A stretch of 64,000 nt of DNA from the NCBI RefSeq assembly GCF_009727055.1, contig NC_052359.1:62601214-62665213 (forward strand), given 5' to 3'. Positions 966-58,308 of the stretch are shown in pieces. The translations under genes were made by a program, and so were the position numbers. The stretch's first letter is position 1. Every line of letters starts with the position of its first letter. Below the pieces are notes generated by a model. The model searched no databases, was not told the DNA's origin, and saw only the letters and a list, made by a program, of their open reading frames with translations. This stretch comes from Benincasa hispida (taxonomy: Eukaryota; Streptophyta; Magnoliopsida; Cucurbitales; Cucurbitaceae).

Positions 966-1275
966 TGATAACTTGTAGAAAAACAAGTTATTTATACTGC
1001 TTTATTTAGATATTGCGATTAAAAGAGAGGAAAGTTGCTTCAATTGTATGGAAATGGGCTAAGAAATGCAAGAATTATAAATTGTCATCAATACACCCAC
1101 TGACACCATTGCGATGGTAGAAAAGAGTATTTCAAGTCTGTTTTGCAGGAAATCAAGTCACTGTATGCGCTCATGGCTCAAGAGAAAAAAATTAATGCAT
1201 CTACGTCGCATTGCGCCCATCATTCAGAAATGAATAGACGATCAACGCAATGACGGCGCATGCGACAATCGATCA

Positions 1276-1800
1276 NNNNNNNNNNNNNNNNNNNNNNNNN
1301 NNNNNNNNNNNNNNNNNNNNNNNNNNNNNNNNNNNNNNNNNNNNNNNNNNNNNNNNNNNNNNNNNNNNNNNNNNNNNNNNNNNNNNNNNNNNNNNNNNNN
1401 NNNNNNNNNNNNNNNNNNNNNNNNNNNNNNNNNNNNNNNNNNNNNNNNNNNNNNNNNNNNNNNNNNNNNNNNNNNNNNNNNNNNNNNNNNNNNNNNNNNN
1501 NNNNNNNNNNNNNNNNNNNNNNNNNNNNNNNNNNNNNNNNNNNNNNNNNNNNNNNNNNNNNNNNNNNNNNNNNNNNNNNNNNNNNNNNNNNNNNNNNNNN
1601 NNNNNNNNNNNNNNNNNNNNNNNNNNNNNNNNNNNNNNNNNNNNNNNNNNNNNNNNNNNNNNNNNNNNNNNNNNNNNNNNNNNNNNNNNNNNNNNNNNNN
1701 NNNNNNNNNNNNNNNNNNNNNNNNNNNNNNNNNNNNNNNNNNNNNNNNNNNNNNNNNNNNNNNNNNNNNNNNNNNNNNNNNNNNNNNNNNNNNNNNNNNN
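1276..1800. other. Assembly gap (525 N)
   Basis: A run of N inside the LTR that starts at 966. By alignment with the copy at 61613, the missing bases should hold the TATA region and the start of the leader. Reading frames that cross the gap are meaningless. Confidence 1.
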
Positions 1801-3136: not shown

Positions 3137-3154
3137 TGGCACCATTGCCCGGGA
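3137..3154 (+). other. Degenerate tRNA-Asp primer-binding site
   Basis: tggcaccattgcccggga lies six bases after the LTR end. It differs at three positions from the complement of the 3' end of plant tRNA-Asp (TGGCGCCGTTGCCGGGGA), the primer known for Athila-type elements. Confidence 0.7.
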
Positions 3155-3241
3155 ACTGGTAATGGGGACTTGGACTTGTTCATTCATTCATATTCATCAT
3201 TTTACTTATGCTTAAAGATACAAAATATGTCAACAAGTTTA

Positions 3242-3259
3242 TGGCGCCGTTGCCGGGGA
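3242..3259 (+). other. Second, perfect tRNA-Asp primer-binding site
   Basis: TGGCGCCGTTGCCGGGGA matches the expected complement of the tRNA-Asp 3' end at 18 of 18 positions and sits 105 bases after the degenerate site. The bases before it (tatgtcaacaagtt) copy the LTR end (tatgtcatcaagtt), so a segment of LTR end plus primer site was duplicated locally. Confidence 0.75.
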
Positions 3260-3466
3260 TTGGTTAACGGTTATTGTTTGAGAACGTTTGTAGTATGTGC
3301 AGGACAAATCTCTTTGTATTGGATGTTTATCGCGAAGAGCAATCTGACGGCTTATGAGTACTGGAGTGACCCAGAAATTCTAAGCTGACCCAAAGATCAG
3401 GTGTATTTTTCACGCAGGAGTACATCAAGACCAGATTAAGCACCGAAACTTCAAGATCTATGGTTA

Positions 3467-5245
3467 CGAAAATTTGAAAACAGTCCCGTGGTTCAAAATG
3501 ATGAAAAAAAGTCGTGCCACCAGATGATTGTTGAAACGGAGTTCATTTGGTGCGCCAAAACGGCTATCAGGCCCCACAGGTGCATGGAGCCTATTTTTGT
3601 GCGCGAACTTTCAGGCGGGCGAAAATTTGAAAATGAACCCAGGGGTTCAGAACGATGAGGAAAGCCGTGCGCCAGTACAGTTTTGGGAACGGAGCTCATT
3701 TGGTGCCCCAAACAGCTAACAGGCCTGCGGAGGGTGCCCGGGGCCAATTTTTGTGCGCGAACTTTTCGATAAGCAAAAATTTTTAAAAATGGACCCAGGG
3801 GTTAAGGAAATGATGAGAAAAAGTTGTGCGCGCAGACGGTTTTGGAAATGAAGATCGTTTGGCTGCCCCAAATGGCTAGCGGGCCGGCAGGGGTGTTCTA
3901 GGGTCAAATTTTTGTGCGCGAACATTCCGGGGGAGGGAAAATTGAAAACGGACCCAGGGGTTCAAACGATGGCAAAAAGTCGTGCGCGCAGACGATTTAG
4001 GAACGGATGGCTCGTTTGGTGCTCCAAACGGCTATCGGGCCGTGGGGGTGCTTGAGGCCCAATTTTTGTGCACGAACTTTCCGGAGGGGCGAAAATTTGA
4101 AACACGTCCCGGGGGTTCAGAACGATGAAAAAAAGTCATGCGTTAGACAATTTTTGGGAACGGAGCTCGTTTGGTGCCCCAAACAGCTATCGGGCCTTGT
4201 GAGGGTGCACGGGCCCGATTTTTGTGCACAAACTTTCACAGGCAGGAAAAATTTGGAAATAGACCCAGGGGGTTAAGAACGATGAGGAAAAGCCATGCGC
4301 CAGACAGTTTGGGAACGGAGGGCTCGTTTGGTGCCCCAAACAGCTATCCGGCCTTGCGAGGGTGCCGGGCCAAATTATTGTGCGCGAACTTTCCGGCAAG
4401 CAAAATCTTGAAAAACGGAAGCCAGGGGTTCAGAACAATGAGAAAAAGTTGTGCGCACAGATGGTTTGGGAATTGAAGATCGTTTGGTGCCTAAACGGCA
4501 AGTGGGCCCGATGGGGGTGTCCTTAGAGTCAGAATTTTGTGTGTAACATTCCAGCGGGCGAAAATTTGAAAATGGACCCAGGGGTTAAAACGATGAGAAA
4601 AAGCCATGCGCCATAGACGATTTAGGGAACGGAGCTCGTTTTGGTGCCCAAACGGCTATCGGGCCAAGCGGAGGTGTCCCAGGGCCAATTTTTTGTGCGC
4701 GAACTTTTCGGCGGGTGAAAATTTGAAAACGGACCCAGGGGTTTAGAACAATGAAAAAATCGTGCACACAAACGATTTTTGGAATGGATCTCGTTTGGTC
4801 GTCAAACGGCTATCAGGCTTCGGCAGGGGTGCCCCGGGGTCCAATTTTCGTGCTCGAACTATCCTCTGGGGCGAAAAATTGAAAATGGACCCAGGGGTTC
4901 AGAATGATGAGAAAAAGCCGTGCGCGTAGACGGTTTTAGGAATAGAGCTCGTTTGTTGCCCCAATGGCTATCAAACTCATGAATACTGACACATTGGGTT
5001 CAATGCGATGAGAAAAAGCGTGCGCACAGATGGTTTTTGGAACAGAGGCTCGTTCGGTGTGTCCCAAATGGCTATCGGGCCTGACGGGGGTGCCTAGGGC
5101 CCAATTTTTTGTGCGCGAACTTTCCGAAAAAGCAAAAATTTGAAAAGGAAACCCAGGGGTTTAGAACGATGAGAAAAAGTCGTGCGCACAGATGGTTTGT
5201 GAATGAAGATCGTTTGGTGCACCAAAACAAAGCTAGCAGGCCCAG
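3467..5245. repeat. Satellite array, block B (about twelve ~156-bp units, decayed)
   Basis: The same unit as block A. The ggttcagaacgatgag box or its variants recur near 3491, 3645, 3800, 3958, 4115, 4270, 4426, 4583, 4738, 4886, 4996 and 5157. Copies carry more indels and transitions than block A. One unit near 4930-5000 is shortened by ~45 bases. The block ends inside a unit, at a truncated minus-strand LTR. Confidence 0.88.
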
Positions 5246-5755
5246 CAGGTGAAATGTCAACATTATCTTTTGGATTTTCTCAAGGTAGATGCGTTGATGC
5301 GTTCATTCCACCTACCTTGCGTTGATCCCATTAGTTTACATTGTCGCATAGCCGCAATCATTCAATGGCCGCATTCGCTTAATACCGCAACTCTACATGT
5401 TGACCGCAATCGCCTGACGAGCGCAATCCCCATGCGATGGATGCATGCGGCTGATCACCGCAACACTCATGCATTGATCTAATGCATTTGCCTTGTGATG
5501 GAGAGTTTCTCCTATGCGGTCGTCTATGCGGTGGTCCGATTTCCGCGTTTGCGTTCATTTCATGCATTAGCTACAAAAATAGAACATTGAACGCATAATT
5601 AATGCAAAATAACGGGTTAGCTGAGATTCGTTATGCTGATCGACGCAAACTCATATTCTCGTGAATTCTTATCATGATTGACGCATATTCTGCCTAACAA
5701 CCTTCATAATTCTAAGTAAAAGGCCTAAGATGGCATGCATTTCTGCATGTCATCA
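5246..5755 (-). mobile_element. Athila-type 3' LTR, truncated (minus strand)
   Basis: Read on the minus strand, the LTR starts TGATGACATGCAGAAATGC at 5755, directly after a polypurine tract, and runs to 5246 where the satellite cuts it. The part 5246-5465 is homologous to 12880-13072 in the minus-strand LTR further right (shared 'aggtgaaatgt', 'cattccacc' and 'accttgcg' blocks). About 290 bases at its start are absent from that partner, which is itself truncated there. Confidence 0.7.
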
Positions 5756-5771
5756 CATCCCCAAACTTAAA
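5756..5771 (-). other. Polypurine tract of the minus-strand Athila-type element
   Basis: On the minus strand it reads tttaagtttggggatg and abuts the LTR start. The plus-strand element at 20.5 kb has the equivalent tttaaatttgggggtg directly before its 3' LTR. This tract primes plus-strand DNA synthesis in LTR retrotransposons. Confidence 0.75.
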
Positions 5772-6640
5772 ATCATGCTTGTCCTCAAGCATGCATTATA
5801 ATCAAGAAATTCTAACTCAACTTCATGCTTTCCTTTGCGATGACTAGCTTCTCAAAATATAATTTACACACACCTTTGACCATCACCGCAATGCTCTCCT
5901 CCACTTTGGCCGCTTCTTCAAAAAGATCTTGTCTAAGTTAAATCCGGCAAGCCTTTTCTAAAAAACTTTTATTCATTCATCGCAATTTTGTATTTAGCTT
6001 TTGAGAATGCGTTCATTCAAAAATACTTCAGAACTTTGCGATGGCTTATTCAAATGCGGCGTTGAACCTGGTTACACCCTTTGTTTTGCCTTACCCCCAC
6101 ATGTGTCATGCGGTAATCCAACTTCGGTTGCATTCCTTATTCAACTCAACTCTTGTCTAGTTTGTTTTGGCTTGCGCCGGACAGAGGAGTTGCGCTTAGG
6201 CACTGATCCTGGCTACTTTCCTACGTTTTGGCTTGCCCCCACGTATGTCATGCGGACATCCAACTTTGAGCAAGTGCCTTTCACAGCTTAACTCTTATCA
6301 ACATGGGTTTCCCTATTGCGTTGACAGTGGAGTTATTATTCTAAAAAACTCACTTCACTTTTTTTTGTTTTTTTAAGGATCGCAATGCAATGAACGAAAT
6401 TCTCTGAGACCGCTGCCACCCCCAAACTTAGAGGTTGGTAGCGTTCTCAATGCAAAGTTAAAAACAAAATTACAAGAATGCGATAATAAATGTTTGAACA
6501 AAGGTTTGCACAAAATAAAACTTCAGACTTTCAAAATTTGAAAAAGCTAATAAAAGTAAAGAATGCCTTGCGTTGATTAGTTAGAAGATGCGGTGAACTA
6601 TACGTACCATCATAGAAACATTGCAAAACAACGCAATAGG
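5772..6640 (-). mobile_element. 3' non-coding internal region of the minus-strand Athila-type element
   Basis: No coding sequence is recognisable. The region holds two copies of a conserved ~33-base box (6090-6122 and 6232-6264) and a second polypurine-like 'cccccaaacttagag' at 6420. The same arrangement occurs before the 3' LTR of the 14827-25491 element. It probably belongs with the 5' LTR and primer site at 11247-13072, the body having been lost or displaced by 6641-11246. Confidence 0.6.
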
Positions 6641-7065
6641 GAAAACGGACCCAGGGGTTCAGAACGATGAGAAAAAATCCGTGCGCGTAGATGGTTTTGG
6701 GAACGGAGCTCGTTTGGTGTTCCAAACGGCTATTAGGCACGACGAGGTGCCCCGGGCCAATTTTTTGTGTGCGAACTTTCCAACGGCGGAAATTTGAAAA
6801 CGGACCTAGTGGTTCAGGAAAGATGAGGAAAAGCCGTGAAGACGGTTTTGGAAACGNNNNNNNNNNNNNNNNNNNNNNNNNNNNNNNNNNNNNNNNNNNN
6901 NNNNNNNNNNNNNNNNNNNNNNNNNNNNNNNNNNNNNNNNNNNNNNNNNNNNNNNNCCAAAGTCTACCGGGCCCAGCGGGAGAGCCTAGGGCCCAATTTT
7001 TGTGGGCGAACTTTCCGGCGAGTAAAAATTTGAAAACGGACCCAAAGGTTCAAACGATGAAAATG
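6641..7065. repeat. Satellite array, block C, with a 100-N gap
   Basis: Two to three units of the ~156-bp satellite (boxes near 6655, 6811 and 7048). Positions 6857-6956 are exactly 100 N, a conventional unknown-size gap. The block ends in mid-unit at about 7065, where unrelated decayed sequence starts. Confidence 0.85.
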
Positions 7066-9527: not shown

Positions 9528-9900
9528 TTGTAAATTAATGAATTGATGTTGAAATTATTTAATTTGGAAATTAATGAATTGATGTTGAAATTATTTAATT
9601 TGAAAATTAATGAATTGACGTTGAAATTATTTAATTTAGAAATTAATGGATTACGTTGAAATTATTCAATTTAAAAATTAATGGCAGGAATTAATTTCAT
9701 TATGGAAGGAAGGGGTGTTTCAATTTAATGGTTTAATTGGAGGGAAGTTATGGAAATTAGACTTTTGGAAATTAATGGATTACGTTGAAATTATTCAATT
9801 TAAAAATTAATGGCAGGAATTAATTTCATTATGGAAGGAAGGGGTATTTCAATTTAATGGTTTAATTGGAGGGAAGTTATGGAAATTAGACTTTTAATGT
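9528..9900. repeat. Tandem repeats in the gypsy LTR (~42 bp, then ~126 bp)
   Basis: From 9528 to about 9680 a unit with aattaatgaattgatgttg and aaattatttaattt repeats four to five times. From about 9640 to 9895 a longer unit repeats twice ('attaatggattacgttgaaatt', 'ggcaggaattaatttcatt', 'atggaaggaaggggt', 'tggagggaagttatgg'). These are local expansions; no coding meaning. Confidence 0.8.
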
Positions 9901-10528
9901 CACACAAATTTAATTTGAAATTAATGTCAAGAATTAATTTCATTGTGGAAGGGAGTGAGTTAAATTCTTTGTGAATTGAAAGTTGGAAGCAGGTCTGATT
10001 GAAGGAAGAATTTGGAGATTGGAATATTGAGAGTGGTTGTTACTCAGGCTTCGTTGGAGAATTGAATTTAAAGATTTATTATTAAAGACTGTCACTTGGA
10101 TCGATATCTGAATCTAGTATCGAGGTAAGTAATCTTACTACTGGAACTGCCCACGGGCCAGGCATTAGATGTATGCTAGCATGATAAATGCACATTATGG
10201 CAAAATGTTAGCATGATAGACTGATAGTATAATATGATCAAAGTATGTTTTGGTATGAGATCTGAATTATTTATTTATGCACATAGACATTTGAATGATA
10301 GTATGAGATGGTATGTGCTTTCATATGGTTGTATTTGATCTGATGATGTTGAGGTACACATGTATGTTGTAGAACCATGATGTTGAGGTATATGTGTATG
10401 TTGTAGATCCATGATGTTGAGGTTTATATGTATGTCATAGATTCGTATAGTGATGATTATGATGTTGAGACTGTGCAAATATCCTTACTGATTAGTTAGA
10501 TGCCCATTAGATTTTTTATTTCCTTTGG

Positions 10529-10692
10529 GATTCACCAGTTTGTGTTTCCTTCGAGATTCATCAGTTTGTGTTTCCTTCGAGATTCACCAGTTTGTGTTTC
10601 CTTCAGGATTCACCAGTTTGTCTCCTTCGGGATTCACTAGTTTGTGTTTCCTTCGAGATTCATCAGTTTATGTCTCCTTCGGGATTCACCAG
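10529..10692. repeat. 26-bp minisatellite within the gypsy LTR
   Basis: Seven copies of a 26-bp unit containing GATTCACCAGTTTGTG and TTTCCTTCG, starting at 10529, 10555, 10581, 10607, 10631, 10657 and 10683. The other LTR of this family has its counterpart at 37325-37510 on the opposite strand. Confidence 0.9.
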
Positions 10693-11246
10693 AGGTAGTG
10701 GGCATACTTAACTACAGTAGGATAAGACTCAGTCTTCTTCTTGTTTCATGTGCATATGTGTCCCATGAGGACTAGAGCAGTTTATATGTTTCACCAGAGG
10801 TGGGTATCTAAAGGACATAGATGCCCAGCCAGACCCTAGTAGTGGGGTTACTTACTGAGTATTTTATACTCATTCTTTCTCATGTTGTTGTTTCAGGTAA
10901 GGGTAGAGATGCACTGGCGATGGACAAGCGGAATTCGTGATCAAGCCACTAGACTAGTTTTTACGCTTCTGCATCATGAAATTTAGAGTTCTTTTCATGT
11001 TTCTCTTAACTTTTAGTTTTGATGTTTAAAACTTACTTTAAGAATCGTTTTTCAGACTCATTTACTATCCTTTATGATTTATGGGTACCCTACTATTGTT
11101 TTAGTATTTCAATTTAATGAAAGTCTTTTGAACTTACCTTATTTAATTAGCATTTATTTCGCCATAACCGAGTGTCGTTTTGAGTTTCATGCATGCATGT
11201 ATTTAGTAACGGCCTAACTTAAGTCCTAGGGGGTCGGGTCGTTACA

Positions 11247-16542: not shown

Positions 16543-18125
16543 ATGGCTGAACAACCTGAAGAATGAGCCATAAATGAAAACAACATAATGGCAAATCCTA
16601 TCCTACTAGCAAATGATCGCAATAGACCCATCCGGGACTATGCATCACCAAACTTGTATGATTTCTCTCCAAGAATCATGAGACCAGCATTGGATGGATC
16701 AGGTTCGAGATGAAGCCAGTAATGTTACAAATGATACAAACAGCAGGACAGTTCGGAGGACGGCGTGGTGAAGATCTGCATGCCCATCTACGAAGCTTCA
16801 TTGAAATTTGTAACACTTTTGTGTTCCCTAATATCTCCGTAGAGGTGAAGATCTACACGCCTATCTACGAAGCTTCATTGAAATTTGTAACACTTTTGTG
16901 TTCCCTAATATCTCCGCAGAAGAGGTTCGACTCATGCTATTTCCATTTTCACTATGTGATAAAGCAGGAAAATGAGCATACTCCCTCGAACCAGGAGAGA
17001 TAACTTCATGGGAGCAAGTTGTGAAGAAGTTTATGAAGAAGTATTTCCCTCTTATAGAGAATGTTAGAAGGAGGAAATTGATCACCAATTTTAAACAAGA
17101 AGAAGATGAATCGCTCAATGACACGTGGGCGAGATTCAAGAGACTAGTGTGCGATTGCCCACACAATGGATTGTCGGATTGCCTCCAAATGGAGATTTTC
17201 TATCATGGATTAAATTTTGCATCGCAAACAGCTACCAATGCGATAGCAGCAAAAGGTCTACTGGACAAAACATATGATGAGGCAAAGAACATTCTTGATC
17301 GCATCTCGAAAAACCACGAAGATTGGTAAGAAAGCGATCAAAGAGAAAAACCCAGAGAAGGTAATGCAAGTAATGGTGCCATCACATCATTGCAAAATCA
17401 GATCAATGTGATGATAAATTTATTACAGGGCATCACAATAAAGAATCCCGGAATGCAAAGAGGGCAAGTCAATGCAATAGAACAGACAAGCACCAATTGT
17501 GCTACATGTGAAGAATCGCATTCGGTTGAAGTGTCCACGAAATCCGCAGTCAATCTATGTCAAGAACAACCCTTTTTCAAACACGTGTAAACCCGGGTGG
17601 CAAAACCACCCAAATTTTGCTTGGAAAAATAACCAACAACAAGGTTGTCAACCCATGGCGCAAAGAGAAGGACCACCAGGATTTTTCCAAAGAATTAACG
17701 GTCAATAGCAACAACAAGCCAGCAGCTATCAAACACCACCATCATCCTCTCTGGAGAATTTGTTAAAACAATACATCAAAAAAAATGAAACAGACCTCCA
17801 GAGCCAAGCGACATCCATCCGCAATTTAGAAATCCAAATAGGACAAATTGTGGAAGAGCTGAAAAACATACCACAGGGGACACTGCCTAGCTCAACTGAG
17901 CTCCCACGTAACTCGAGGAATACAGGGGAAGAACAATGCCTAGCAGTCACCCTGAGAAGTGGAAAGGCGACGGTGGAATTTAGGAAGGAGCCTAGCAGGA
18001 CCAATTCAAATGCGATGGAATCAAAGAAACCGTTGACACAAACTGAGTCAGAGGAGCCCGAGATTATGGAACCTGAAGATGCGATCACCTTTAAGCCTCC
18101 AGACCATGGAACAGTGAAAGTATAG
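16543..18125 (+). pseudogene. Athila-type Gag, broken
   Basis: It starts at the ATG at 16543 (MAEQPEE, then a stop) and continues with NDRNRPIRDY, typical of Athila Gag starts. The best-kept part is 17021-17329: WARFKRLVCDCPHNGLSD, MEIFYHGLNFASQT and KTYDEAKNILDRIS, the retrotransposon Gag domain. A lysine- and glutamate-rich linker (17760-18125) leads to the protease. Gag forms the particle that packages element RNA. A 77-bp tandem duplication at 16767-16920 (not a multiple of three) and several stops break the frame. Confidence 0.82.
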
Positions 18126-26990: not shown

Positions 26991-28205
26991 CTTCAGGTAA
27001 TCGGAGACTGGTTTGAAAATTTCTTTAGATCAAGCAAATTACCACTACTCTCCAAACTTTTTCATTTAGTATTTCTTGTTTAAAAGTTTTTAGATCCCCT
27101 TCTCTTCAGACTTCCCAAACATTGTCATTTAGGATTTCTTATTTGAATGTTTCAAACCACTTATTATGCTTTATGTTCACTTTGTTCTTGTTCCTTTTAT
27201 CTATTATGCAATGCTTTTATGATTAGTGATGGTAAACTCTTGACAAATGCACATTTTGTAGAACATGATATATAAGTAATGTAATGAGGCATTTAAGCCT
27301 CCTTTTCAATTCTATGATGCATAGTTGGAGCCCATTTCTCTTGTTGAGCTTCCTTTTGTGAGCTTGGTTTTTTATATACCCTTGTATTCTCCCTCCCCCC
27401 CAATCAAGAACATGAATCAAAATATTATTATTTCTTTTTTAAAAGGAAAAAGAAGACCAAAATGTAACTGATGTCATTACGTTCTTATCTCCAGTGCTCA
27501 TATATTAGTATCCTTTTTAACCTAATCTTCCCAAGATCCTATATCTCCTCTGTCGCTAAATAATTATATTGACTACAATTTATTGATGTTAGCACATTCT
27601 TATCTACTATTTTGCATGTTTTGTTGATGTTGGTCCCTATGTTCGGTCGCAAGCCAAAGTAAAGAAAAGGGGAGATGAGACCAAGTTCATAGTTAAGGTA
27701 TTGTTGGTGGAGAAATTGGTTTTCCTCTTCTGAGCTTATCTTAATAGATATTCTATATGTTCAAACTATTTTGACATTTCAAATAGCGTAAGGAAAAGTA
27801 GAATCATTATAAAATTTGGCTTTTATGTTTATGGATTGATACAAGGAACTCATTACTCAAAAATCAAGTTAGATGAGGTGCAAGTTGTGTTGGCTAAATT
27901 TCTGGGATGCTACATGTGATAGTGGATGCTTGCACAATTTGGTCATTTTGAAGAATATGTGGCAGAGATGGTAGGTGCTCGCAATTTTGAAGATAAATTA
28001 TGGGTCAAACATTACTTTGTCCTTTTGAAGATATAGCTAGGATTACTTCATACCGATATAAGTTTACTTTGGAATTGCTCATATGGAAGGGGGGTTGGAA
28101 AGGTTAACTGTAGTTTTAGAAATGTGTTCATATGGAAATGATGACTGCAAAGGTGGTTTTGATAGTTGTTATGTGGATGATAGCTTTGTTTGTATGGGAT
28201 GGATT
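26991..28205. other. Unassigned AT-rich stretch
   Basis: No open frame beyond chance, no domain, no terminal repeats. It may be old host intergenic DNA, since it is the left flank of the palindromic copia structure. I cannot assign it. Confidence 0.4.
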
Positions 28206-28607
28206 TGTTGAAAGTTAAACATGTTTTATTTAACTAGACAAGTTATAGATGAATTTAAGGATGTGGGTTAATTAAACATATTAATTTATGACAAGTTATA
28301 GATGAATTAACGTAAGAGGTAATTTATTAGAGTTTCACATAAATTAAGTGTAGGATTTTAATTGTTCCATGTAAACTTAATTAGGGTGTAAGTTATGTAT
28401 TTAAATTTACCCATGACAATCCTATAAATAGGATTGACATTGACATGGTTGATGTATCCAAGTGTATAGAGAAGAACACATAAAGAGAGTTTAATCAAAA
28501 GTGTGAACCAAGTTTGAAGAGTTTTTCAATTAAAAGCGTTTTTGTTTTCTCTCAAATAATCGTGTGTTAGTTATTTATTTGTGAGTGTCCATCACACACT
28601 TCCAACA
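28206..28607 (+). mobile_element. Copia LTR of the left arm (402 bp)
   Basis: It starts TGTTGAAAGTTAAACATG and ends ...CTTCCAACA, followed by the primer site TGGTATCAAAGC (28611-28622, one change from the tRNA-iMet complement). The TATA box lies inside a perfect inverted repeat, 28427-28446. Confidence 0.85.
28427..28446 (+). promoter_or_regulatory. TATA box inside a perfect inverted repeat
   Basis: CAATCCTA and TAGGATTG flank TAAA, so the TATAAATA box sits at the centre of an 8-bp-arm dyad. The right arm keeps the same arrangement at 32378-32397 on the minus strand. Confidence 0.7.
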
Positions 28608-28653
28608 AAGTGGTATCAAAGCTTGAGTTTGAAAAACAATAATTGTTTTGCAA

Positions 28654-29418
28654 ATGACAAATAAAAATTTGGTTCCTTTCCAAGTGTCTCGACTTATGAA
28701 AGAAAATTATAGCAATTGGTGTATTCGTATGAAAGCTCTACTTGGTTGGCAAGATGTATGAAACATTGTCAATAGTGGTTATGAAGAACCAGAAAGTGAT
28801 GCGACTTTAAATTAAGCTCAACAAGAAGCTTTGCAAAATACAAGAAAGAAAGACCAAAAGGCTCTCACCATCATTCATCAAGACATTGATGATCCAAATT
28901 TTGAGAAGATTTCGGGAGCAACTATTGCACATCATGCATGAAAATTTTTTAAGAATACATACAAAGGAGTAGATCGAGTCAAGAAGGTTCGCCTCCAAAA
29001 ATTGAAAGGTGATTATGAATCACTATATATGAAGGAATCTGAATCAATTTCATATTATACTTCAAGATTGCTAGCAGTAGTAAATGAAATGAAAAGATAT
29101 GGTGAGACGATAGATGATGAGCAAGTGGAAGAAAAGATACTTCGCTCATTGGATGAAAAATTCAATTTCATCATTGTAGCTATTGAAGAATCAAAGGATT
29201 TGAGTACAATGTCCATTGATCAACTTATGGGTTCCTTACAAGCCCATGAAGAGAAGCTTCTCAAGAAGAACAAACAAACAACTGAGCAACTTTTTCAGTC
29301 AAAGTTGCAGTTGAGAGATAAAGAAGATAGTCAAGAAAAAGGCAATCGAGGTCGAGGACGTAGTAACAACCGTGGACGTGGTGATTTCAGAGGTCGAGGT
29401 CAAGGAAATTATGGTTAA
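28654..29418 (+). pseudogene. Copia Gag, left arm
   Basis: ATG at 28654; NYSNWCIRMKALLG and LNEKF-like ([10 protein letters not shown]) motifs are those of the copia Gag (UBN2/retrotran_gag type) domain. The tail is rich in Arg-Gly ([19 protein letters not shown]), as in RNA-binding Gag ends. Stops near 28758, 28812 and 28940 replace Trp or Gln codons; the frame 29002-29418 is open. Gag coats the element RNA. Confidence 0.85.
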
Positions 29419-30330
29419 AGAAAATTTGATGAGAGTAATTCAAACTCTAATTCATCTAGAGGTCGTGGAAGACAAGAAAACGGTGAGTCATCTTTGCTTC
29501 TAGTATGCAAAGGTGAATAAACGTGAAAATAATGTATGGTATCTTGATAATGGTGTAAGCAATCACATGTGTGGATGTAAGTCAATGTTTGTGGAACTTG
29601 ATGAATATGTTGGTGGTAATATCATATTTGGTGATGTCACAAAAATTCTTGTCAAAGGAAAATGTAAGATTTTATCAATTTGAAAAATGAGAAGCATGAG
29701 TTTATCACTAATGTTTGTTATGTGCCTGATATGAAGAATAATATTTTGAGTTTGGGACAACTCTTAGAGAAAGGCTATAATGTTTTGATGAAGAATTATA
29801 GTCTTTCAATAAGGGATAATCGTAATAATATGATTGCTAAATCATAAATGACAAAGAATAGAATGTTTTTATTAAACATTCAAACTGATGTTGCTAAATG
29901 TTTGAAGTCATGAATATGGTGAAAGGATTGTCATATCTCAAACATCCAGATCAATTTTGTGAAGGTTGACTTATGGCAAGCAAGCAAGGAAGAGTTTTCC
30001 ATGAGAATCTTCTTCAAGAGCAAGGAGACCGCTAGAGTTAGTTCACAGATCTTTGTGGACCAATTAAACCAAATTATTTTGGTAAGAATAATTATTTCTT
30101 ATTATTTATTCATGATTTCAGTTGAAAAACTGGGTTTATTTTGTCTAAGGAGAAATCAGAAGTATTTGGCATGTTCATGAGATTTAAAGCTCTTGTGAAA
30201 AAAAAAAAAAAAAAAAAGTGGTTATTACCTAAAAGCCTTGAGATCAAACAGGGGAGGAGAATTCACTTCAAATGAATTCAAAGATTTGCGCAAAAAATGG
30301 AATTCGTTGGCCTATGAGGAGTCCATGGAA
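29419..30330 (+). pseudogene. Copia protease and integrase start, left arm
   Basis: WYLDNGVSNHMCG (about 29538-29577) is the protease site with the usual D-T-G changed to D-N-G. IIFGD and KNNILSLGQLLEKG-like sequence follow (29700-29780, frameshifted), then the pre-integrase region with CEG changes. Near 30060-30260 come IKPNYFG-like and RGGEFTSNEFK-like stretches, the latter spanning the integrase Asp region. Heavily frameshifted, with a run of about 20 A at 30199-30218. Confidence 0.7.
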
Positions 30331-30369
30331 CTATCATAGGAACTGTCATAGGCCAAATACATAAGAAAT

Positions 30370-31249
30370 ATTTGTTGAGGAGTCCATGGAACTGTCATAG
30401 GCTGATGAATTCCATTTTCTGGGCAAATATTTGAATTTATTTGAAGTGAATTCTCTTCCCCTGTCTGATCTCAAGGCTTTTAGGTAATAACCACTTTCTT
30501 TTTCGACAAGAGCTTTAAATCTCTTGAACATGCCAAATGCTTCTGATTTCTCATTGACAAAATAAACCCAAGTTTTTCGACTGAAATCATCAATAAATAA
30601 TAAGAAATAATTATTCTTACCAAAAGAACGTGGTTTAATTGGTCCACAAAGATCAGTGTGAACTAACTCTAGCAGTCTCCTTGCTCTTGAAGAAGATTCT
30701 CATGGAAAACTCGTCCTTGCTTGCTTGCCATAAAGACAATCTTCACAAAATTGATCTGGATGTTTGACATATGGCAGTCATTTCACCATATTTATGACTT
30801 CAAACATTTAGCAACATCAGTTTGAGTATTTAATAAAAACATTATATTCTTCGTCATTTGCGCTTTAGCAATCATATTATCACGATTATCCCTTATCGAA
30901 AGACTATAATTCTTCATCAAAATATTATAGCCTTTCTCTAAGAGTTGTCTCAAACTCAAAATATTGTTCTTCATATCAGCCTAAACATTAGAGATAAACT
31001 CATGCTTCTCATTCTTCAAGTTATCAAAATCTTACCTTTTCCTTTGATAGGAATATTTGTGGCAACACCAAATATTATATTATCACCAACAGATTCATCA
31101 AGTTCCACAAACATTGACTTATATCCACACATTTCATTGCTTGCAATGCTATCAAGATACCATGCATTATTTTCACATGTTTCTTCACCTTTGCATGCTA
31201 GAAGCAAAGATGACTCACCGCTTTCTTCATCTTTCTTAGCATAATTCAC
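30370..31249 (-). pseudogene. Copia protease and integrase start, right arm
   Basis: Minus-strand mirror of the left arm. 31249-31016 reads SSLLLACKGEE, WYLDSIASNEMCG (protease site, D-T-G lost) and KSMFVELDE. Then KNNILSLRQLLEKGYN (30974-30792). FKRFKALVEKESG and LRSDRGREFTSNKFK at 30531-30400 are integrase. Frameshifts separate the pieces. Confidence 0.72.
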
Positions 31250-31436
31250 ATTTTCTTCTACTTTATTCCTACATTACTAGGAATAATGGCCAAATTTATG
31301 ACAGTTATAAAATTCAATCTGTCTTTGTCATATATTTTTTTCATTATTTGATCTTTCTCCATTTGATCTCGAATAATTTTGTCTTCCACGACCTCTTGAT
31401 GAATTAGAGTTTGAATTACTCTCATCAAATTTTCTT

Positions 31437-32160
31437 TAACCATAATTTCCTCGACCTCGACCTCTGAAATCACCACGTCCTCAACCTCAATTGCCTTTTT
31501 CTTGACTATCTTCTTTATCTCTCAACTACAACTTTGACTAAAAAAGTTGCTCAGTTGTTTGTTTGTTCTTCTTGAGAAGCTTCTCTTCATGGGCTTGTAA
31601 GGAATCCATAAGTTGATCAATGGACATTGTACTCAAATCCTTTGATTCTTCAATAGCTACAACGATAAAATTGAATTTTTCATCCAATGAGCGAAGTATC
31701 TTTTCTACCACTTGCTCATCATCTATTGTTTCACCATATCTTTTCATTTCATTTACTACTGCTAGCAATCTTAAGGTATAATCTGGAATCAATTCAGATT
31801 CCTTCACCTCTCAATTTTTGGAGGCAAACCTTCTTGACTTAATCTACTCCTTTGTATGTATTCTCCAAAATTTGTCATGTATGATGTGCAATAGTTGCTC
31901 CAGAAATCTTTTCAAAATTTGGACCATCGATGGCTTGATGCATGATGGTGAGAGCCTTTTTATCTTTTTTTCTTGTAATTTGCAAAGCTTCTCATTGAGC
32001 TTGATTTAAAATCGTCACTTTCTGGTTCTTCATAACCATTATTGACAATGTCTCATACATCTTATGAACCAAGTAGAGCTTTCATACAAATACACCAACT
32101 GCTATAATTTTCTTTCAAAAGTCGAGGCACTTGGAAGGGAACCAAATTGTTATTTGCCAT
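31437..32160 (-). pseudogene. Copia Gag, right arm
   Basis: Its ATG is at 32160 on the minus strand and it ends at the same TAA as the left-arm Gag. 31807-31538 is open: MKESELIPDYTLRLL and [17 protein letters not shown], closely matching the left arm. The Arg-Gly tail is present but frameshifted. Stops differ from those of the left arm, so the two arms decayed independently. Confidence 0.82.
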
Positions 32161-32206
32161 TTATAAAACAATTATTGTTTTTCAAATTCAAACTCTGATA
32201 CCACTT

Positions 32207-32655
32207 CGTTGGAAGCGTGTGATGGACACTCACAAATAAATAACCAACAAATGATTATTTGAGAGGAAACAAAAACACTTTTAATTAAAAGACTCTTCAA
32301 ACTTGGTTCACCGTTTTGATTGAACTCTCTTTGTGTGTGCTTCTCTACACACTTGGACATATCAATAATGTCAATGTCAATCCTATTTATAGGATTGTCA
32401 AGGGTAAATTTAAATACATAACTCACACCCTAATTAAATGTACATGGAACAATTAAAATCAGACACTTAATTTATGTGAAACTCTACTAATTAACTTTTA
32501 CATTAATTTAATTAACTCTCATCTTTTAATTTTTTTTCAACTCTCATAAATTAATTCATCTATAACCTCTCATAAATTAATATGCTTAATTAACCCACAT
32601 CCTTAAATTCATCTGTAACTTATCTAGTTAAATAAAACATGTTTAACTTTCAACA
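32207..32655 (-). mobile_element. Copia LTR of the right arm (449 bp)
   Basis: On the minus strand it starts TGTTGAAAGTTAAACATG at 32655 and ends ...CTTCCAACG at 32207. A primer site (TGGTATCAGAG, plus-strand 32193-32203) lies inward. It is ~47 bp longer than the left LTR because of extra 'gagagttaattaaattaat'-like sequence near 32500-32560. Confidence 0.82.
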
Positions 32656-33000
32656 ATAGTTTTTATGGTAGTTTATGATATGTAATTTTTTAAATTATTC
32701 ATATGGGGTTGACTATTGGAATTATGTTCATTATATTCTTTTTGGAAATGTAAATATGGGGTTGTCCAAATTCTTCTAACTTAGAAAATCTTTCATGGAG
32801 TTGTAAGTTATATATTGATAACATTGATGAAGTAATCTTTGTTAAAAGTATTGAGGAAATTTTGATTGATAAGATTGAAAATGTGTGGTTGTTCATTTGG
32901 TTTGATGAATGTTTGTTGTATATATATGTACATATTTTCTTGTTAGACCAAAATACATGAGCAACTTATAGGTAAATATCTATAATACAAATTTTTTTAA
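32656..33000. other. Unassigned AT-rich flank
   Basis: No domain or repeat structure recognised; right flank of the palindromic copia structure. Confidence 0.4.
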
Positions 33001-36509: not shown

Positions 36510-36773
36510 ACTAAGATCTTCTTGTTCACAATCACAAATTACTCAGAATTAACGGTCAAGTACAATTCAAGAGTCAAGGAATATTGTATGCTGAGGCTTG
36601 AAACTCTTTTTTTGTTTATCTGATGGCAGCTCAATCGTGTAGACGAAGCTCCAAGAACTAAATGATAGTTTAATTATGTAAATGATAGGACGAAGTGTTA
36701 GACGATCGTGTAGACGACAATTGATTAGAGCTAAACAATCATATAGACAACAACTGAAGAGCTAGACAATCAC

Positions 36774-39268
36774 TGTAATGACCCGACCCCCTAGGACTTA
36801 AGTTAGGTCGTTACTAAAATACATGCATGCATAGAACTTAAAACAACACTCTTTTATGATGAAATAAATGCTAAATAGATAAGGGGAATGCAAAAGTCCT
36901 TTATTAAATGCAAATATTAAAAACAATAATAGGGTACCCATAAATCATAAAGGTTAATAAATAAGTATGAAAAACAATTCTTAATAATAAGTTTCAAACA
37001 TCAAAACTGAAAATTTAGCAAAAACATGAAGGAAATCTAAGTCTTGTGAGCAGAAGCATAAAAACTGGTCCCAGAGGCTCGATCACAGATTCCGCTTGTC
37101 ATTCGTCGGTGCGTCCCTACTCTTACCTGAAACAACAACATGAGAAAGAATGAGTATAAAATACTCAGTAAGTAACCCCACTACTAGGGTTAGGCTAGGC
37201 ATCTATGTCCTCTAGATACCTACCTCTGGTGAAACCTATAGACTACTCTAGTCCTCATGGGACACATATACACATGAAACAAAAAGGAGACTGAGTTCTA
37301 TCCTACTGTAGTTAAGTATGCCCACTACCTCTGGTGAATCCCGAAGGAAACACAATCTGGTGAATCTTGAAGGAGACACAAACTGGTGAATCCAAAAAAA
37401 CACAAACTGGTGAATCCCAGAGGAAACACAAGCTGGTGAATCCCGAAGGAAATACAAACTGGTGAATCCCGAAGGAAACACAAACTGGTGAATCCCGAAG
37501 GAAACACAAAATCTAATAGGCATCTAACTAATCAGTAAGGACACTTGCACAGTCTCAACATTATAATTATCACTATATGAATCTACGGCATACATATATA
37601 CCTCAATATCATGGCTCTACAACATACACATATACCTCAACATTATCAGATCAAATACAACCATATGGAATCACATATCATCTCATGCTAGCATTCAAGT
37701 GTCTATGTGCATAAATAAATCTTTCAGACCTCAAGCAAGAACATACATTAGTTATACTAAACTATCAGTTCATCATGCTGTCATTCTACCATAATATTCA
37801 TCCATCATGCTAGCATACATCCAATACCTGGCCCGTGGCAGTTCCAGTAGTAAGATTACTTACCTCAAATTTGGTCCCAAATCAATTCAAGTAATTAACC
37901 TTCTTACAACTCTTGGAAGACTTTGAATCCACCCTATAACATACATTACAAATATTAATTTAGCACCCCTAGTCCAAAAATAATAAATCCAAAGTTTTAA
38001 ACTCATCTTTGGGGTCTAAATCCAATTAACCAAATTAAATCAAATGTCCCCAAATTTAACTTACCGAAGTCGCGGCTTGGTTCGAGGTCAGTTCCAAAGT
38101 TTTATTTATTTGTCCAAACTGAATCTAAATCAAAACCAAAGTATAATAACTAAATTTTCAACGATTGCCCTTAATCAAAAAGGGAATCAAACCAACTACT
38201 CACCCAAAATACCATAATTGACGGAACTCATAATCTTGTCGGTAGCACCCAAAAGAATTTAAAATCCCTTCAAACTTTGTATCTAAAATCCAAAATCACA
38301 ATTAATCTAGTAATTAGGCCCATAATCGGTTGGTTATTCAAAACTTGAACAACAAATCCTCAAATTTCCAAGAAAACTCACCCAAACTAGTAGATCCAAC
38401 GAGTGGCAACGACATCCTGCTTGACGATGGTGTCGGAGTGGAGTCACACAACCTAGGCAGTAGCGACTCGCAACCAGAGGCAGCAAGCTACAGATTCGTG
38501 AGTCAGAGAGAGAGAGGCGGGCGTTTGAAGCTCGTCGTCGGCAGCGCGCCACTGGTGGGAGTCGGATCCAGCCAACTGAGGAGAGGTGTGTTGGGTCGCA
38601 AACGGTGAGGCGGCGCTTCAGATCTGGATTTTTCGGTGGAGTCGACACGGAGGACAAGGGCAAGCGACTGGATCTGTGACTGAGACAGCTAGAATGTGTG
38701 TCTCAGATCTGTGACTCGACGTCGACTTCAGCGGCTGGGAGGAAGCGCCAGCGCGACGAGTAGTGCGAAGGAGGCGAGCGGCGTGAGAGCAGGCGGGCAG
38801 AGGCTGGGTCGGCGGTGGACAACGCGGAGAAGAAAAGTTGGTGGGTCATCTTTGCGTGAGAAGAATAAGGGGAAGGGAAAAAGAAAAAAATAATAATAAA
38901 TAAAGAAATAAAATAAAATATTTTATTTTATTTTATTTTATTTCATTATATCTTATTTTACCTTATTTTATTCTCTTCCTTCCACTTTTAATCCCTTGTT
39001 CCTTTAAAATTTTCAACTAAAAAAAAAATATTTTAACCAACCCCCTCTCAAAATAAAATTAATTCCTGACATCAGTTTCAAATTAAATTTGTGTGACATA
39101 AAAAGTTCAATTTCAACAATTTCCCTCTGATTAAACAATTAAGACGAATCACCTCTTTCTTTGCGATCAAATCACAATAATTACACCTAAATTTCCAAAA
39201 TTCCAAAAATTCCCTTTAATACTAGAAAATACTAAAATGACATTAATAACAAAATTCGAGGTGTTACA
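36774..39268 (-). mobile_element. Solo Ty3/gypsy LTR (chromovirus family)
   Basis: On the minus strand it starts TGTAACACCTCGAATTTTG at 39268 and ends ...GGTCGGGTCATTACA at 36774, 2495 bp. Same family as the LTR ending at 11246. The host copia LTR continues on both sides ('gagctagacaatc' and 'tagacgattgga', compare 47938-47970). No primer site or coding region, so it is a solo LTR. A GC-rich block at 38400-38880 holds a chance frame. The flanking 5-mers (atcac, gtata) do not match. Confidence 0.82.
37325..37515. repeat. 26-bp minisatellite in the gypsy solo LTR
   Basis: About seven copies of a 26-bp unit with CTGGTGAATCCCGAAGG and AAACACAAA, the inverse of the repeat at 10529-10692. Because 26 is not a multiple of three, it gives similar FPSGFTSL-like peptides in all three minus frames. 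These are not genes. Confidence 0.9.
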
Positions 39269-51800: not shown

Positions 51801-53277
51801 AGGTAAAATGTTATAATTGTAACAAATATGGACATTATGCGAATGAGTGTTACTCATCTCAAAAAGAGTCGATTGATCGAAAGCATCAGGACCGATCAAC
51901 TGCTAGCACATCAAAAGCCCATCAAGGGCAATCCAATTATGCAGAGGAGAATGGAACCTTATTTATGGTTTCAAAGGGAGAAGAAGAAAGTCAAGATAGT
52001 ATGTGGTATCTTGACACAGGAGCCTCGAATCACATGTGTGGAAAACGCGAGATGTTTGTGGAGTTGAACGAGATGAAGAAAGGTAATATTGCCTTTGGAG
52101 ACAATTCTTTGGCCGCCATCAAAGGAATAGGTAAAATTCTCATTTGGTTAAAAAATGGAGAAAATCAATATATGACAAATGTTTATTACATTCCCAATGT
52201 AAAAAATAATATATTGAGTGTAGGACAATTGTTAGAGAAAGGTTTTGAAGTTCAAATGAAAAAAAATTGTTTGTATTTGAGGGATAATTATGAGAGACTT
52301 ATTGCTAAAGTCTCCATGACCAAAAACCAAATGTTTCCTTTGAATATATGTAATGATGTTCCAAAATGCTTGAAGACGTGTTAAGAAGATCTCTCTTGGC
52401 TATGGCATCTACGGTTGGGGCACCTCAATTTTGGAAGTCTAGAAGATTTGTCGAAGAAGAAGATGGTGCGAGGTTTACCACACATTCATAAGCCAAACCA
52501 AGTGTGTGAAGGGTGTTTGCTTGGCAAACATCATCGAAATAGTTTTCCGAAGGAGTCTATGACATGAGCAAAGAAGCCTCTAGAACTCATCCATGCCGAT
52601 GTGTGTGGAATGATCAAACCAGAGTCTCATGGTAAAAGTAAATATTTCCTTCTCTTTATTGATGATTTTTCTAGAAAAATATGGGTGTAATTTTTTAAGG
52701 AAAAATCAGAAGTATTTTAAATCTTCAAGAGATTTAAGGCACGTGTTGAAGAATGAAAGCAACCTTACAATCAAGGCCATGAGAACCGAACGAGGTGGTG
52801 AATTCACATCAAATGAGTTCAAACGATTTTTTGATGAAAAAGGCATCTGACGTCCGTTAACAGTCCCAAGGACACCACAACAAAATGGTGTGGTGGAGAG
52901 AAAGAATCAAACATTCTTGAACATGGCAAGAAGCATGCTAAAGACAAAGAAGATGCCGAGGGAATTTTGGGCGGAGGCCGTAGCTTATGCGATTTATTTG
53001 ACAAATCGAGCACCAACCAAAAGTGTGCTTGACAAGACGCCTCAAGAAGCATGGAACGGAAGAAAGCCCGGGATTGGTCACTTCAAGGTGTTTGGGAATA
53101 TTGCAATGCTCATGTGTCGGAAGAAAAAATGACCAAGCTCGATGATCGAAATGAGAAACTCATCTTCATCGGCTATGATCAAGTTCAAAGGGTTATTGTC
53201 TTTACAATCCTTTGAATGGGAAGGTAATTATTAATCGTGATGTTGTTTTTGATGAGGAAGCCTTTTGGGATTGGAAT
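51801..53277 (+). pseudogene. Copia zinc knuckle, protease and integrase of the outer element
   Basis: CYNCNKYGHYANEC (C-X2-C-X4-H-X4-C) at about 51811-51852, then MWYLDTGASNHMCG with the protease D-T-G intact (about 52001-52040) and NNILSVGQLLEKGF. Past a stop at 52381 come LWHLRLGHLNFGSLEDL and CEGCLLGKHHR (integrase zinc site), [25 protein letters not shown] and PQQNGVVERKNQTF: a D-D-E core with frameshifts near 52690 and 52750. The open stretch 52890-53132 holds ARSMLKTKKMPREFWAEAV. Broken at 53277 by the inner element. Confidence 0.88.
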
Positions 53278-53278
53278 T

Positions 53279-53462
53279 GTTGAAATGTCTTGAATCTGTT
53301 TGCTGGCGCTTCGAACAACCTAGTACGGGGGTCTCGCTGGTGGGGGTTCGCGCTGTCTCTTATACACATCTAGATGTGTATAAGAGACAGGTTGAAATGT
53401 CTTGAATCTGTTTGCTGGCGCTTCGAACAACCTAGTACGGGGGTCTCGCTGGTGGGGGTTCG
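53279..53462. other. Library artefact: mosaic-end junction with duplicated flank
   Basis: 53353-53371 is CTGTCTCTTATACACATCT, the 19-bp Tn5/Nextera mosaic end, and 53372-53390 is its exact reverse complement, forming the 38-bp junction adapter of Nextera mate-pair libraries. The 72 bases at 53279-53350 are repeated exactly at 53391-53462. The 3' LTR has a single copy and no adapter, so this is not biological. Confidence 0.97.
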
Positions 53463-53807
53463 GGGGCGCCCCTAAAACCTATTCAGATTTTGTATTCAAC
53501 ATATTTATTTATTTTTAGTTATTTACGTTTTTTACCCTAGGGTTTAGAGCAGTGCGATATATAAACTCTCTAACCTAGAGGCACTGTTCTTGATGTGATT
53601 CTGAAAACATTCTCTCGAAATAATATTGTTCTCTCTCTACCTGTGGACGTAGCTAACACACTGTTAGTGAACCACGTATATCTATGTGTCGATTTTTTCC
53701 CACTCTACGTTCCTTTTTATATTATTTAATTGTCGATTTCGCAACAAACTGGTATCAGAGCCTTGTTAGGGTTTTTTCGAAATTCCACAATTGTTCGACA
53801 ATTGAAG

Positions 53808-54671
53808 ATGTCTAGCATGAACGCAAAGATCGATAAATTTACCGGGAGGAACAGTTTTGGTTTATGGCAGATCAAGATACGATCCCTGCTAAAGCAGCAG
53901 GGGTTGTGGACACCACTGACGCGTAAGTCAAAGAAGGTTGCCGTAGATGACGAAGAGTGGCAGACTCTTGAGGAGAAGGCTCATTCGACGATCATGCTAT
54001 GTTTAGCTGATGATGTCATCATCGAGGTTGCAGATGAAGAAACTGTCGCTGGTCTTTGGTTGAAGTTGGAGAGTCTTTACATGACGAAATCTTTAACCAA
54101 GAAGTTGTTTCTGAAGAAACGTTTATATCATCTACGTATGCAGGAAGGTACGTCTCTACGAGACCATCTTGATCAATTAAATAAAATTTTATTAGATCTG
54201 CGTAATGTAGAGGTTAAGGTTGATGATGAGGATGTTGCCCTAATTCTATTAACATCTTTGTCGTCGTCTTATGAGACTTTCGTTGACTCGTATATTGGAG
54301 GGAAAGAAACTTTGACCTTAGAAGATACAAAGTCCACATTGCTTATAAGAGAGGACCGTCAGAATGCAGGAAGTTCAGTTTCAGAAAGTCAGGCATCTGG
54401 GTTAGCTACTACAGGAAGCAAGGGACATAGGAATTTTGGTAAGCAGAAGTCGAATCAGAATAAAAGGTCTTCGAAGTCAAAAGGTTCTAGATCAGATGAT
54501 ATTTGTAACTACTGTAAAGAAAAGTGGCATTGGAAAAACGAATGTCCTAAGATAAAAAGGAATCAAGAAAAAAAGGAAAAGGGTGACAAAAGGGAAGCAT
54601 CCTCTTCTGTTGTACAAGTTGAGATTGATTCTGAAGAAGTCGAGATCGATTCTGAAGGAGATCTAGCTTAA
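53808..54671 (+). pseudogene. Copia Gag of the inner element (nearly intact)
   Basis: Start chosen at ATG 53808 (MSSMNAKIDKFTGRN), because the longer frame runs back through the primer site. FGLWQIKIRSLLKQQGLW and KLESLYMTKSLTKKLFLKKRLYHL are the Gag domain. The knuckle is CNYCKEKWHWKNEC, with the usual Gly before the His replaced by Trp. It ends with an acidic repeat (EIDSEEVEIDSEGD) at a TAA where related elements read through into protease. Tork/Tnt1-like. Confidence 0.88.
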
Positions 54672-55630
54672 GTTGTGAATGAACAGTCACATTCTGATGA
54701 TGTGTAGGTTCTTGATTCTGGGGCATCTTATCATATGTGTCCAAATAGAGAGTGGTTCTCAACCTATCAGCAAATAGATGGAGAGAATGTTAACATGGCT
54801 AACGGTGCTGTGTGCAAGATAGTTGGAATAGGCTCAGTCAAGATACGAACATATAATGGTTCCTTTTACACTTTAAAAGAGGTTAAGCATGTTCCACTAA
54901 TGAAGAAGAGTTTGATATCCTTTAGTGTAATCGATAGCAAAGGCTACAGTTGAAGGTAAAGTTAGAGCAATGTATGTCTATAAGGGTTCTGAGGTAGTTC
55001 TGAAAGGCATAAAGCGTGGAACACTGTATTTTCTATTAGGTTCCACAATAACAGGTTATGCTGTTGTTGCATCATTAGTCGTTCACAAGGATGATATGAC
55101 TAAGTTATGGCATATGAGACTTGGTCATATGAATGAAAAAGGTATGCAAATTATGTCAAAAAGAGATCTTATTTGTGGGCATAAGGTGCAGGATTTTGAA
55201 TTTTGTGGGAAGCTTCATCGCAGCAAGTTTCCAAGAGGTGTTCATCGTACAAAAGGGACACTTGATTATATTCATTCAGATTGTTGGGGACCTTCCAAAG
55301 TTGAATCTATTGGAGGTAGTAGGTATTTTTTGTCTATAATTGATGATTACTCAAGAATGACTTGGGTTTTTATGATGAAACATAAAAGTAAAGCCTTCAA
55401 GAATTTCAAGCAGTGGAAGATATTGATTGAAAATCAAACTGGGAAGAAGATCAAAAGGCTGGGAACTGATAATGGTCTGGAATTCTGTGGATCTAAATTT
55501 AATGATTCTGTAAAGATGAGGGGATTGTTCGCCATCATACTGTTAGGAATACTCCACAGCAAAATGGGGTTGCGGAACGTATGAATCAGACGTTGTTGGA
55601 GAGAGCAAGATGCATGCTCTCTAATGCAGG
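54672..55630 (+). pseudogene. Copia protease and integrase of the inner element
   Basis: Same frame as Gag after stops: VLDSGASYHMCPNREWFSTY (protease, D-S-G kept, about 54709-54765), LKEVKHVPLMKKSLISF, then stops near 54953. From 54970: MTKLWHMRLGHMNEKGMQIMSKR, CGKLHRSKF (first zinc Cys of the usual C-X2-C lost), GGSRYFLSIIDDYSRMTWVFM (Asp), RLGTDNGLEFCGSKFN (Asp). A one-base shift before the PQQNG region at about 55530-55570 leads into VAERMNQTLLERA. Confidence 0.87.
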
Positions 55631-57145
55631 GTGGCTAGAAAGTTTTGGGCAGAAGCAGTGAATACATCATGTTATCTAATCAATAGTGGACCTCACACAG
55701 CTATTGATTGTAAAACACCTTACGAGGTGTGGTCTGATAAGCCTGTAGATTATTCTTTATTAAAAGTTTTTGGTTGTATTGTCTACTATCATGTTAATGA
55801 GGGTAAATTAGAACCAAGAGCTAAAAAGGGTATATTTGTGGGTTTTGGGGATGGAGTTAAGGGATATAGAATCTGGTCACCTTCTGAGAATAGAGTCATA
55901 CTTAGTAAGACTATGATATTTGATTAAAATTCCATGCTTAACTCAACTGTAAAGCCTTTTGTGACGTCTACTGATGTGGGAGAAAGTAGTAGTGTTGATA
56001 AATAAGTGGAGATGCAATTCACTTCAGCTGTGAATGAATTACAACATCAAGGTGGAGAAGATCAACACGTTACTACATAAACTGATGTGCAACCAGAAAT
56101 TAATGTGCCTAGAACTTCAGAAGTTGATTTGCCTAAGAATTCTAGATCACGAGTAGATCAACCGAGTATAGCTCGTGATAGAACTAGAAGAGTTGTTATT
56201 GGACCTCCTGTGAGGTATGATTTTGAAGATATGGTTACTTTTGCATTAAAGGTTGCTGAAGAGGTGGATCCTCATGAGCCATCCACCTATAGAGAAGTTG
56301 TGTCATGTGGTGAGTCTACTAAATGGCTTGTTGCTATGGGGGATGAGATGGAATCTCTTGACAAAAATCAGACTTGGGAATTAGTTAAACAACCAAAGGA
56401 GAGAAAAATTGTCACTTGTAAATGGGTCTTCAAGAAAAAGGAGGGAATATCACCTTCAGAGGGCATTAAATATAAAGCTCGAGTTGTTGCTAGAGGGTTC
56501 ACACAAAGGGAAGGAGTTGATTATAATGAGATCTTCTCACCAGTCGTTAGACATACTTCTATCAGGGTGTTACTAGCTATAGTAGCACATCAGAATTTGG
56601 AACTTGAACAACTAGATGTGAAAATAGCTTTCTTACATGGAGAGTTGGAGGAAAAGATTTATATGACCCAACCAGATGGGTTCCAGTGTCCAGGTAAAGA
56701 AGATTATGTTTGCAAGTTGAAGAAATCTTTGTATGGGTTAAAGCAGTCTTCAAGGTAGTGGTACAAACGTTTTGACAGCTATATGATTAGACTTGGCTAT
56801 AACAGGAGTCCGTATGATTGTTGTGTATATCACAACAAAGATGATGATGGTTCGATGATTTATCTACTTTTATATGTAGATGATATGCTCATAGCTGCAA
56901 AGTCCAAGTCTGATATTCTGAAATTGAAGAATCTTCTCAGTGTTGAGTTTGATATGAAGGATTTGGGTGCTGCTCAGAAAATTCTGGGTATGGAGATTTA
57001 TAGGGACAAAGGTAAGAGTAAACTCTTCTTGTCACAGAAAGGATATATTCCGAAAATATTGTCCAGGTTTGGTATGTCATCAGCTAAGCCTATAGATACT
57101 CCTAGTGCTGTAAATGCTCGTTTGTCATCTGAGTTTTCACCTTAG
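55631..57145 (+). pseudogene. Copia integrase tail and reverse transcriptase of the inner element
   Basis: ARKFWAEAVNTSCYLIN and GCIVYYHVNEGKLEPRAKKGIFVGF form the integrase tail (to 55927). RT occupies 56087-57145: NQTWELVKQPKERKIVTCKWVF, KARVVARGFTQREGVDYNEIFSPVV, LELEQLDVKIAFLHGELEEKIYM, SLYGLKQSSR, then TAG at 56757. It continues with YLLLYVDDMLIAAKS (Y-V-D-D) and FDMKDLGAAQKILGMEI. Only a handful of stops (55925, 56003, 56079, 56757, 57143) break it. Confidence 0.9.
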
Positions 57146-57820: not shown

Positions 57821-58308
57821 TGGTCCCCTTTGTGGGACACTTTGAGGCATGAGGGAGAAGTCTTAGTACATCTGGCGATATTGATTTATGTTGCATTTAG
57901 TACATCTGTTATCTGGGAGAGAATTCAAGTCAAGGTGGAGATTTGTTGAAATGCCTTAAATCTATTTGCTGGCGCTTCGAACAACCTAGTACGGAGGTCT
58001 CGCTGGTGGGGGTTCGGGGGCAACGCCCATGAAACCTATTCAGATTTTGTATTCAGCATATTTATTTATTTGCAGTTATTTACGTTTTTTACCCTAGGGT
58101 TTAGAGCAGTGCGATATATAAACTCTCTAACCTAGAGACGTCGTTCTTGATGTGATTCTAAAAACATTCTCTCGAAATAATATTGTTCTCCCTCTGCCCG
58201 TGGACGTAGCTAACACACTGTTAGTGAACCACGTATATCTATGTGTCAATTTTTCCTTACTGTACGTTCCTTTTTATGTTCTTTAATTGTCGATTTCGCA
58301 ACAGGAAT

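Follow-up and report, generated by a model that had tools for sequence, protein, structure and literature searches.

How does a stretch of laboratory sequence come to stand inside an LTR of a copia element in the genome of Benincasa hispida, and why is the LTR sequence before it repeated after it? The question was addressed within a window of 64,000 nucleotides, that is, the whole stretch of DNA that was analysed, and all positions are counted along it. We conclude that the anatomy of 53279-53462 is almost certainly an assembly artefact, in which an untrimmed mate-pair junction was carried into the assembly. The locus contains the following features.

53273 to 53277, + strand: target site duplication GGAAT, left side
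53278 to 53746, + strand: 5' LTR as assembled, 469 bases including 112 surplus bases, delimited by a TG start, a CA end and alignment to the 3' LTR
53279 to 53350, + strand: doubled stretch, copy 1 (LTR bases 2 to 73), an exact match to 53391-53462
53351 to 53352, + strand: stray CG between copy 1 and the adapter, read from the sequence
53353 to 53390, no strand: 38-base mate-pair junction adapter made of two 19-base Tn5 mosaic ends, an exact match, identified through excerpts of PMC7357533 and PMC4248319
53391 to 53462, + strand: doubled stretch, copy 2, an exact match to copy 1, which abuts the adapter and runs on into the remaining LTR
53730 to 54668, + strand: open frame, copia-type gag (PF14223, E 1.3e-34)
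54970 to 55581, + strand: open frame, GAG-pre-integrase and integrase core (PF13976, PF00665)
56087 to 56755, + strand: open frame, copia-type reverse transcriptase (PF07727, E 1e-44)
57944 to 58303, + strand: 3' LTR, 360 bases, TG...CA, with no adapter and one copy of the 72-base stretch, placed by alignment
58304 to 58308, + strand: target site duplication GGAAT, right side

Sequence matching revealed two exact copies of the 19-base Tn5 mosaic end, one on the + strand (53353-53371) and one on the - strand (53372-53390). They stand head to head without an intervening base, just as the earlier note had read them. The resulting 38-mer is a perfect palindrome, identical to its own reverse complement. 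When up to 3 mismatches were allowed, these two were the only mosaic-end matches in the 64-kb window, compared with a mean of 0.01 in shuffled sequence, and the number of copies of the 38-mer expected in 64 kb from base composition is 3e-18. The same mosaic-end scan detected no second junction adapter in the window, and no adapters of other kinds were found there with the oligos tried. An excerpt of PMC4248319 presents the mosaic end as a hyperactive in-vitro substitute for the natural Tn5 ends and prints the oligo. The full 38-mer is printed in an excerpt of PMC7357533 as a biotin-labelled circularisation adapter for a mate-pair library of ~4 kb fragments. In the Nextera long mate-pair protocol, as described in an excerpt of PMC4074385, the junction adapter is contained in every properly made fragment and trimming is needed. 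According to the excerpt of PMC7357533, the 38-mer was ligated to sheared DNA there, and therefore the 38-mer alone is no proof of a Nextera kit. Thus, it can be said that the earlier label "Nextera mate-pair" is correct as to a mate-pair adapter, printed as such in that excerpt, whereas the kit itself, given its sheared-DNA use, is likely and unproven.

The stretch 53279-53350 is repeated exactly at 53391-53462, at an offset of 112 bases and with a maximal extent of 72 bases. The LTR starts at 53278, and the doubled stretch therefore starts at LTR base 2. Copy 2 touches the adapter without a gap, whereas copy 1 is separated from it by the 2 bases CG (53351-53352); after copy 2, and likewise in the 3' LTR, the sequence is GGGGGC. 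This stray CG may have arisen through a sequencing error or may be derived from another copy of the family. It had been claimed that the 72 bases preceding the mosaic ends are duplicated after them; the exact 72-base repeat bears this out, except that the CG stands between copy 1 and the adapter. The two copies are identical to each other throughout, also at the 4 sites that distinguish them from the 3' LTR. Because copy 1 carries the 5' state at these 4 sites, the element's own 3' LTR is not its source. Short-range exact duplications of at least 30 bases at offsets of at most 400 form 9 stretches in the window, 53279/53391 among them. Two of the other 8 were read by eye and look natural: a 77-base tandem duplication at 16786/16863 whose edge bases differ, and a 129-base tandem at 9639/9768 with one internal difference, both without an adapter.

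The host of the adapter is a copia element. It has a TG...CA LTR pair with the GGAAT target duplication on both sides, and its domains follow the order gag-integrase-reverse transcriptase, the integrase lying before the reverse transcriptase as in copia. The LTR pair, GGAAT and the gag, integrase and reverse transcriptase profiles support the earlier placement of the adapter within a copia LTR, and 57944-58303 confirms that the 3' LTR has a single copy of the stretch and no adapter. The adapter is missing from the only paralogous sequence compared, which is this 3' LTR of the same element. We take the element to be nested in an older copia-like element, as integrase-like motifs were seen by eye in the translated left flank and reverse-transcriptase-like motifs in the right flank. 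Other repeats were also observed in the window. A large copia-like inverted repeat occupies 28205-32656, with arms at 28205-30329 and 30383-32656 that are 53 bases apart and 88-98% complementary in several pieces. The segments 9835-11246 and 36511-39161 form a related inverted pair at a distance of ~26 kb; their matching pieces show 77-96% complementarity, and both segments contain a 26-base repeat array. Positions 1-7050 hold a satellite-like array with a period of ~156 bases, and both N runs of the window (1276-1800 and 6857-6956) are inside it. The sole Rfam match in the window, a weak one, is snoR71, a plant snoRNA, at 17066-17172 (-), scoring 41.6 bits where the cut-off is 40. This match lies antisense within a gag-like open frame read by eye at 16976-17326 (+), and the snoRNA call may therefore be spurious.

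The same 38-mer is present in other public assemblies. Among prokaryote species genomes, it was found exactly in at least 120 stretches from at least 19 assemblies, counted by their titles, and 3 of the prokaryote matches listed are records of named chromosomes. Some assemblies among the matches listed have many adapter sites, for example Enterococcus sp. 10A9_DIV0425. Exact copies were also found in 5 of 72,556 plasmid records and in 7 stretches of viral contigs, and none were found in 20,395 E. coli records or in 50,697 phage records, a point against the artefact reading. The 38-mer is tied to no single organism or insertion site, and its scatter over unrelated organisms fits a reagent and not a mobile element.

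We also asked how often a repeat accompanies the adapter, counting exact repeats whose two copies, one to each side, lie no more than 10 bases from the adapter, and never counting N as a match. The 127 loci contained 154 exact junctions, 109 of which were used; the other 45 were excluded because they lay less than 300 bases from a locus end or had another junction within 300 bases. As controls, 1,084 random positions from the same loci with no N in reach were taken; a few of the adapter sites did have N in reach (L082 145, L063 100). A repeat of at least 20 bases touching or near the adapter was present at 14 of the 109 sites and at 1 of the 1,084 control positions, and a repeat of at least 72 bases at 5 of the 109 sites and at none of the controls (0/1,084), among the matches listed. 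These 14 sites were spread over 8 of the 19 assemblies, by title and among the matches listed. At 90 of the 109 public sites, again among the matches listed, there was no repeat of even 9 bases, and doubling is thus an occasional companion of the adapter and not the rule. The reading given earlier, a mate-pair junction adapter left in the assembly with ~112 artificial bases, is thus supported by the 38-mer printed in the literature excerpts, by the adapter-free 3' LTR and by the same anatomy elsewhere.

The flanks of the public adapters show a target preference. The 273 distinct public flanks are enriched for G at position 1 (45%), for C at position 9 (41%) and for A or T at position 5 (78%), and the signal fades past position 9. 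The Tn5 target is 9 bases long, and this pattern is as expected from the Tn5 consensus. When the two flanks in the window, and these two only, were scored with the public-flank matrix, 5% of LTR positions scored at least as high as the right flank and 29% at least as high as the left flank. The right flank fits the public target signature, and the left one is unremarkable as a Tn5 target; for two flanks, this is weak support.

How the junction would have entered the assembly can be outlined as follows. In the making of a mate-pair library, both ends of a long fragment are fitted with mosaic ends and the fragment is closed into a circle, and every proper circle junction reads genome, 38-base adapter, genome. 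An untrimmed junction read from a copy of the host LTR family probably entered contig building or gap closing. Both sides of the junction lie within the LTR and overlap by 72 bases, and the assembly therefore reads the LTR start, the adapter, the LTR start again and then the rest of the LTR. We infer both the untrimmed reads as the cause and the assembler step involved. Repeats of this kind result whenever the genomic sequences to either side of a junction come from a single place and overlap there, and this is the simplest reading for the window. Copy 2 starts at LTR base 2, and this would put the start near a repeat border, where repeat assemblies tend to break.

The same artefact might have been reached by another route, in which the doubling represents the two LTRs of one element and not one place seen twice. 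A mate-pair fragment of ~4.6 kb would have run from base 2 of the 5' LTR to about base 75 of the 3' LTR of one family copy, circularisation would have brought its two LTR starts together across the adapter, and the resulting read would have been placed at the present copy. The LTR spacing of ~4.55 kb is a plausible mate-pair length, and this route explains why both junction sides lie at the same LTR position. However, copy 1 has the 5' and not the 3' state at the 4 differing sites, and a younger copy of the family elsewhere would be needed. We regard this route as quite possible but somewhat improbable. A fragment joining the start of this element's own 3' LTR to the start of its 5' LTR is disfavoured, since copy 1 lacks the 3' LTR bases at those sites. 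Copy 1 thus stems either from one place seen twice or from an LTR-to-LTR mate-pair fragment of a younger family copy.

An insertion in the living genome, by a minimal Tn5-like element consisting of two ends with nothing between them, is extremely improbable. Its inverted ends do face outward, as those of a transposon do, but no transposase gene lies between them, and the ends have the laboratory mosaic sequence printed in the excerpt of PMC4248319. In addition, the 9 bases before the adapter are GGGTTCGCG and those after it GTTGAAATG; there is no target duplication at this point, and what is duplicated is 72 bases long. A natural Tn5/IS50 insertion was likewise rejected, because GGGTTCGCG and GTTGAAATG form no 9-base target duplication and because the exact laboratory mosaic end, by the excerpt of PMC4248319, stands in place of a natural outside or inside end. 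Mosaic ends are also in use in laboratory vectors, but a transgenic or tagmented construct that had integrated into the plant line used for sequencing has a negligible chance of being the source, as the 38 bases stand alone with no vector, marker or cargo and the junction sits within a multicopy LTR.

With an assembly artefact as the preferred reading, its effect on the host element can be stated. The 5' LTR is 469 bases long as assembled and 357 bases long without the 112-base surplus. Aligned from base 2, the sequence from copy 2 onward differs from the 3' LTR by 24 substitutions (20 of them transitions) and 3 gap columns, and the Kimura distance between the LTRs is 0.072. When the insert was left in, the alignment again contained 24 substitutions and the gap columns rose to 109; identity over all columns fell from 92% to 72%. 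The number of substitutions is the same with or without the insert, and substitution-based dating is therefore safe. The earlier note had warned that LTR length, divergence and dating would all be wrong. This applies to length (469 against 357) and to all-column identity (72% against 92%), but not to the count of 24 substitutions. LTR finders that rely on length or overall identity may miscall the 5' LTR at 53278-53746.

The 38 bases are synthetic and carry no weight for biology, and the locus is an ordinary sequencing artefact of low scientific interest. For data quality it has a little importance. The mate-pair reads behind the assembly were presumably left untrimmed or trimmed incompletely, so that it may contain more adapter insertions, as the earlier note also held, and more short duplications. 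We tentatively suggest, while thinking it unlikely, that doubling at adapters is a recurrent assembler signature, in which overlapping junction sides are kept as a short loop. Such a signature might help to detect duplications caused by adapters in public assemblies, also at sites where the adapter was later masked and the duplicated bases were left.

Compared with known systems, the insert agrees with the Nextera mate-pair junction adapter, the Tn5 mosaic end dimer, in all 38 bases and in orientation, with genomic sequence on either side. The usual junction adapter is trimmed from reads, whereas this one was retained in an assembly and is bracketed by a 72-base duplication. The host is like a plant-type copia LTR retrotransposon in its TG...CA LTRs, its 5-base target duplication and its gag-integrase-reverse transcriptase order, and unlike it in that the 5' LTR has 112 surplus bases and the reading frames are broken into pieces. 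Among the untrimmed junction adapters in public prokaryote assemblies, parallels to the arrangement are, for example, in Scytonema (L060), Nitratireductor (L115) and Rhizobium (L029), where exact repeats of 158, 133 and 99 bases, respectively, touch or nearly touch the same 38-mer on both sides. The public prokaryote adapter sites are bacterial and mostly without a duplication, whereas the site in the window lies in an LTR and has a duplication of 72 bases.
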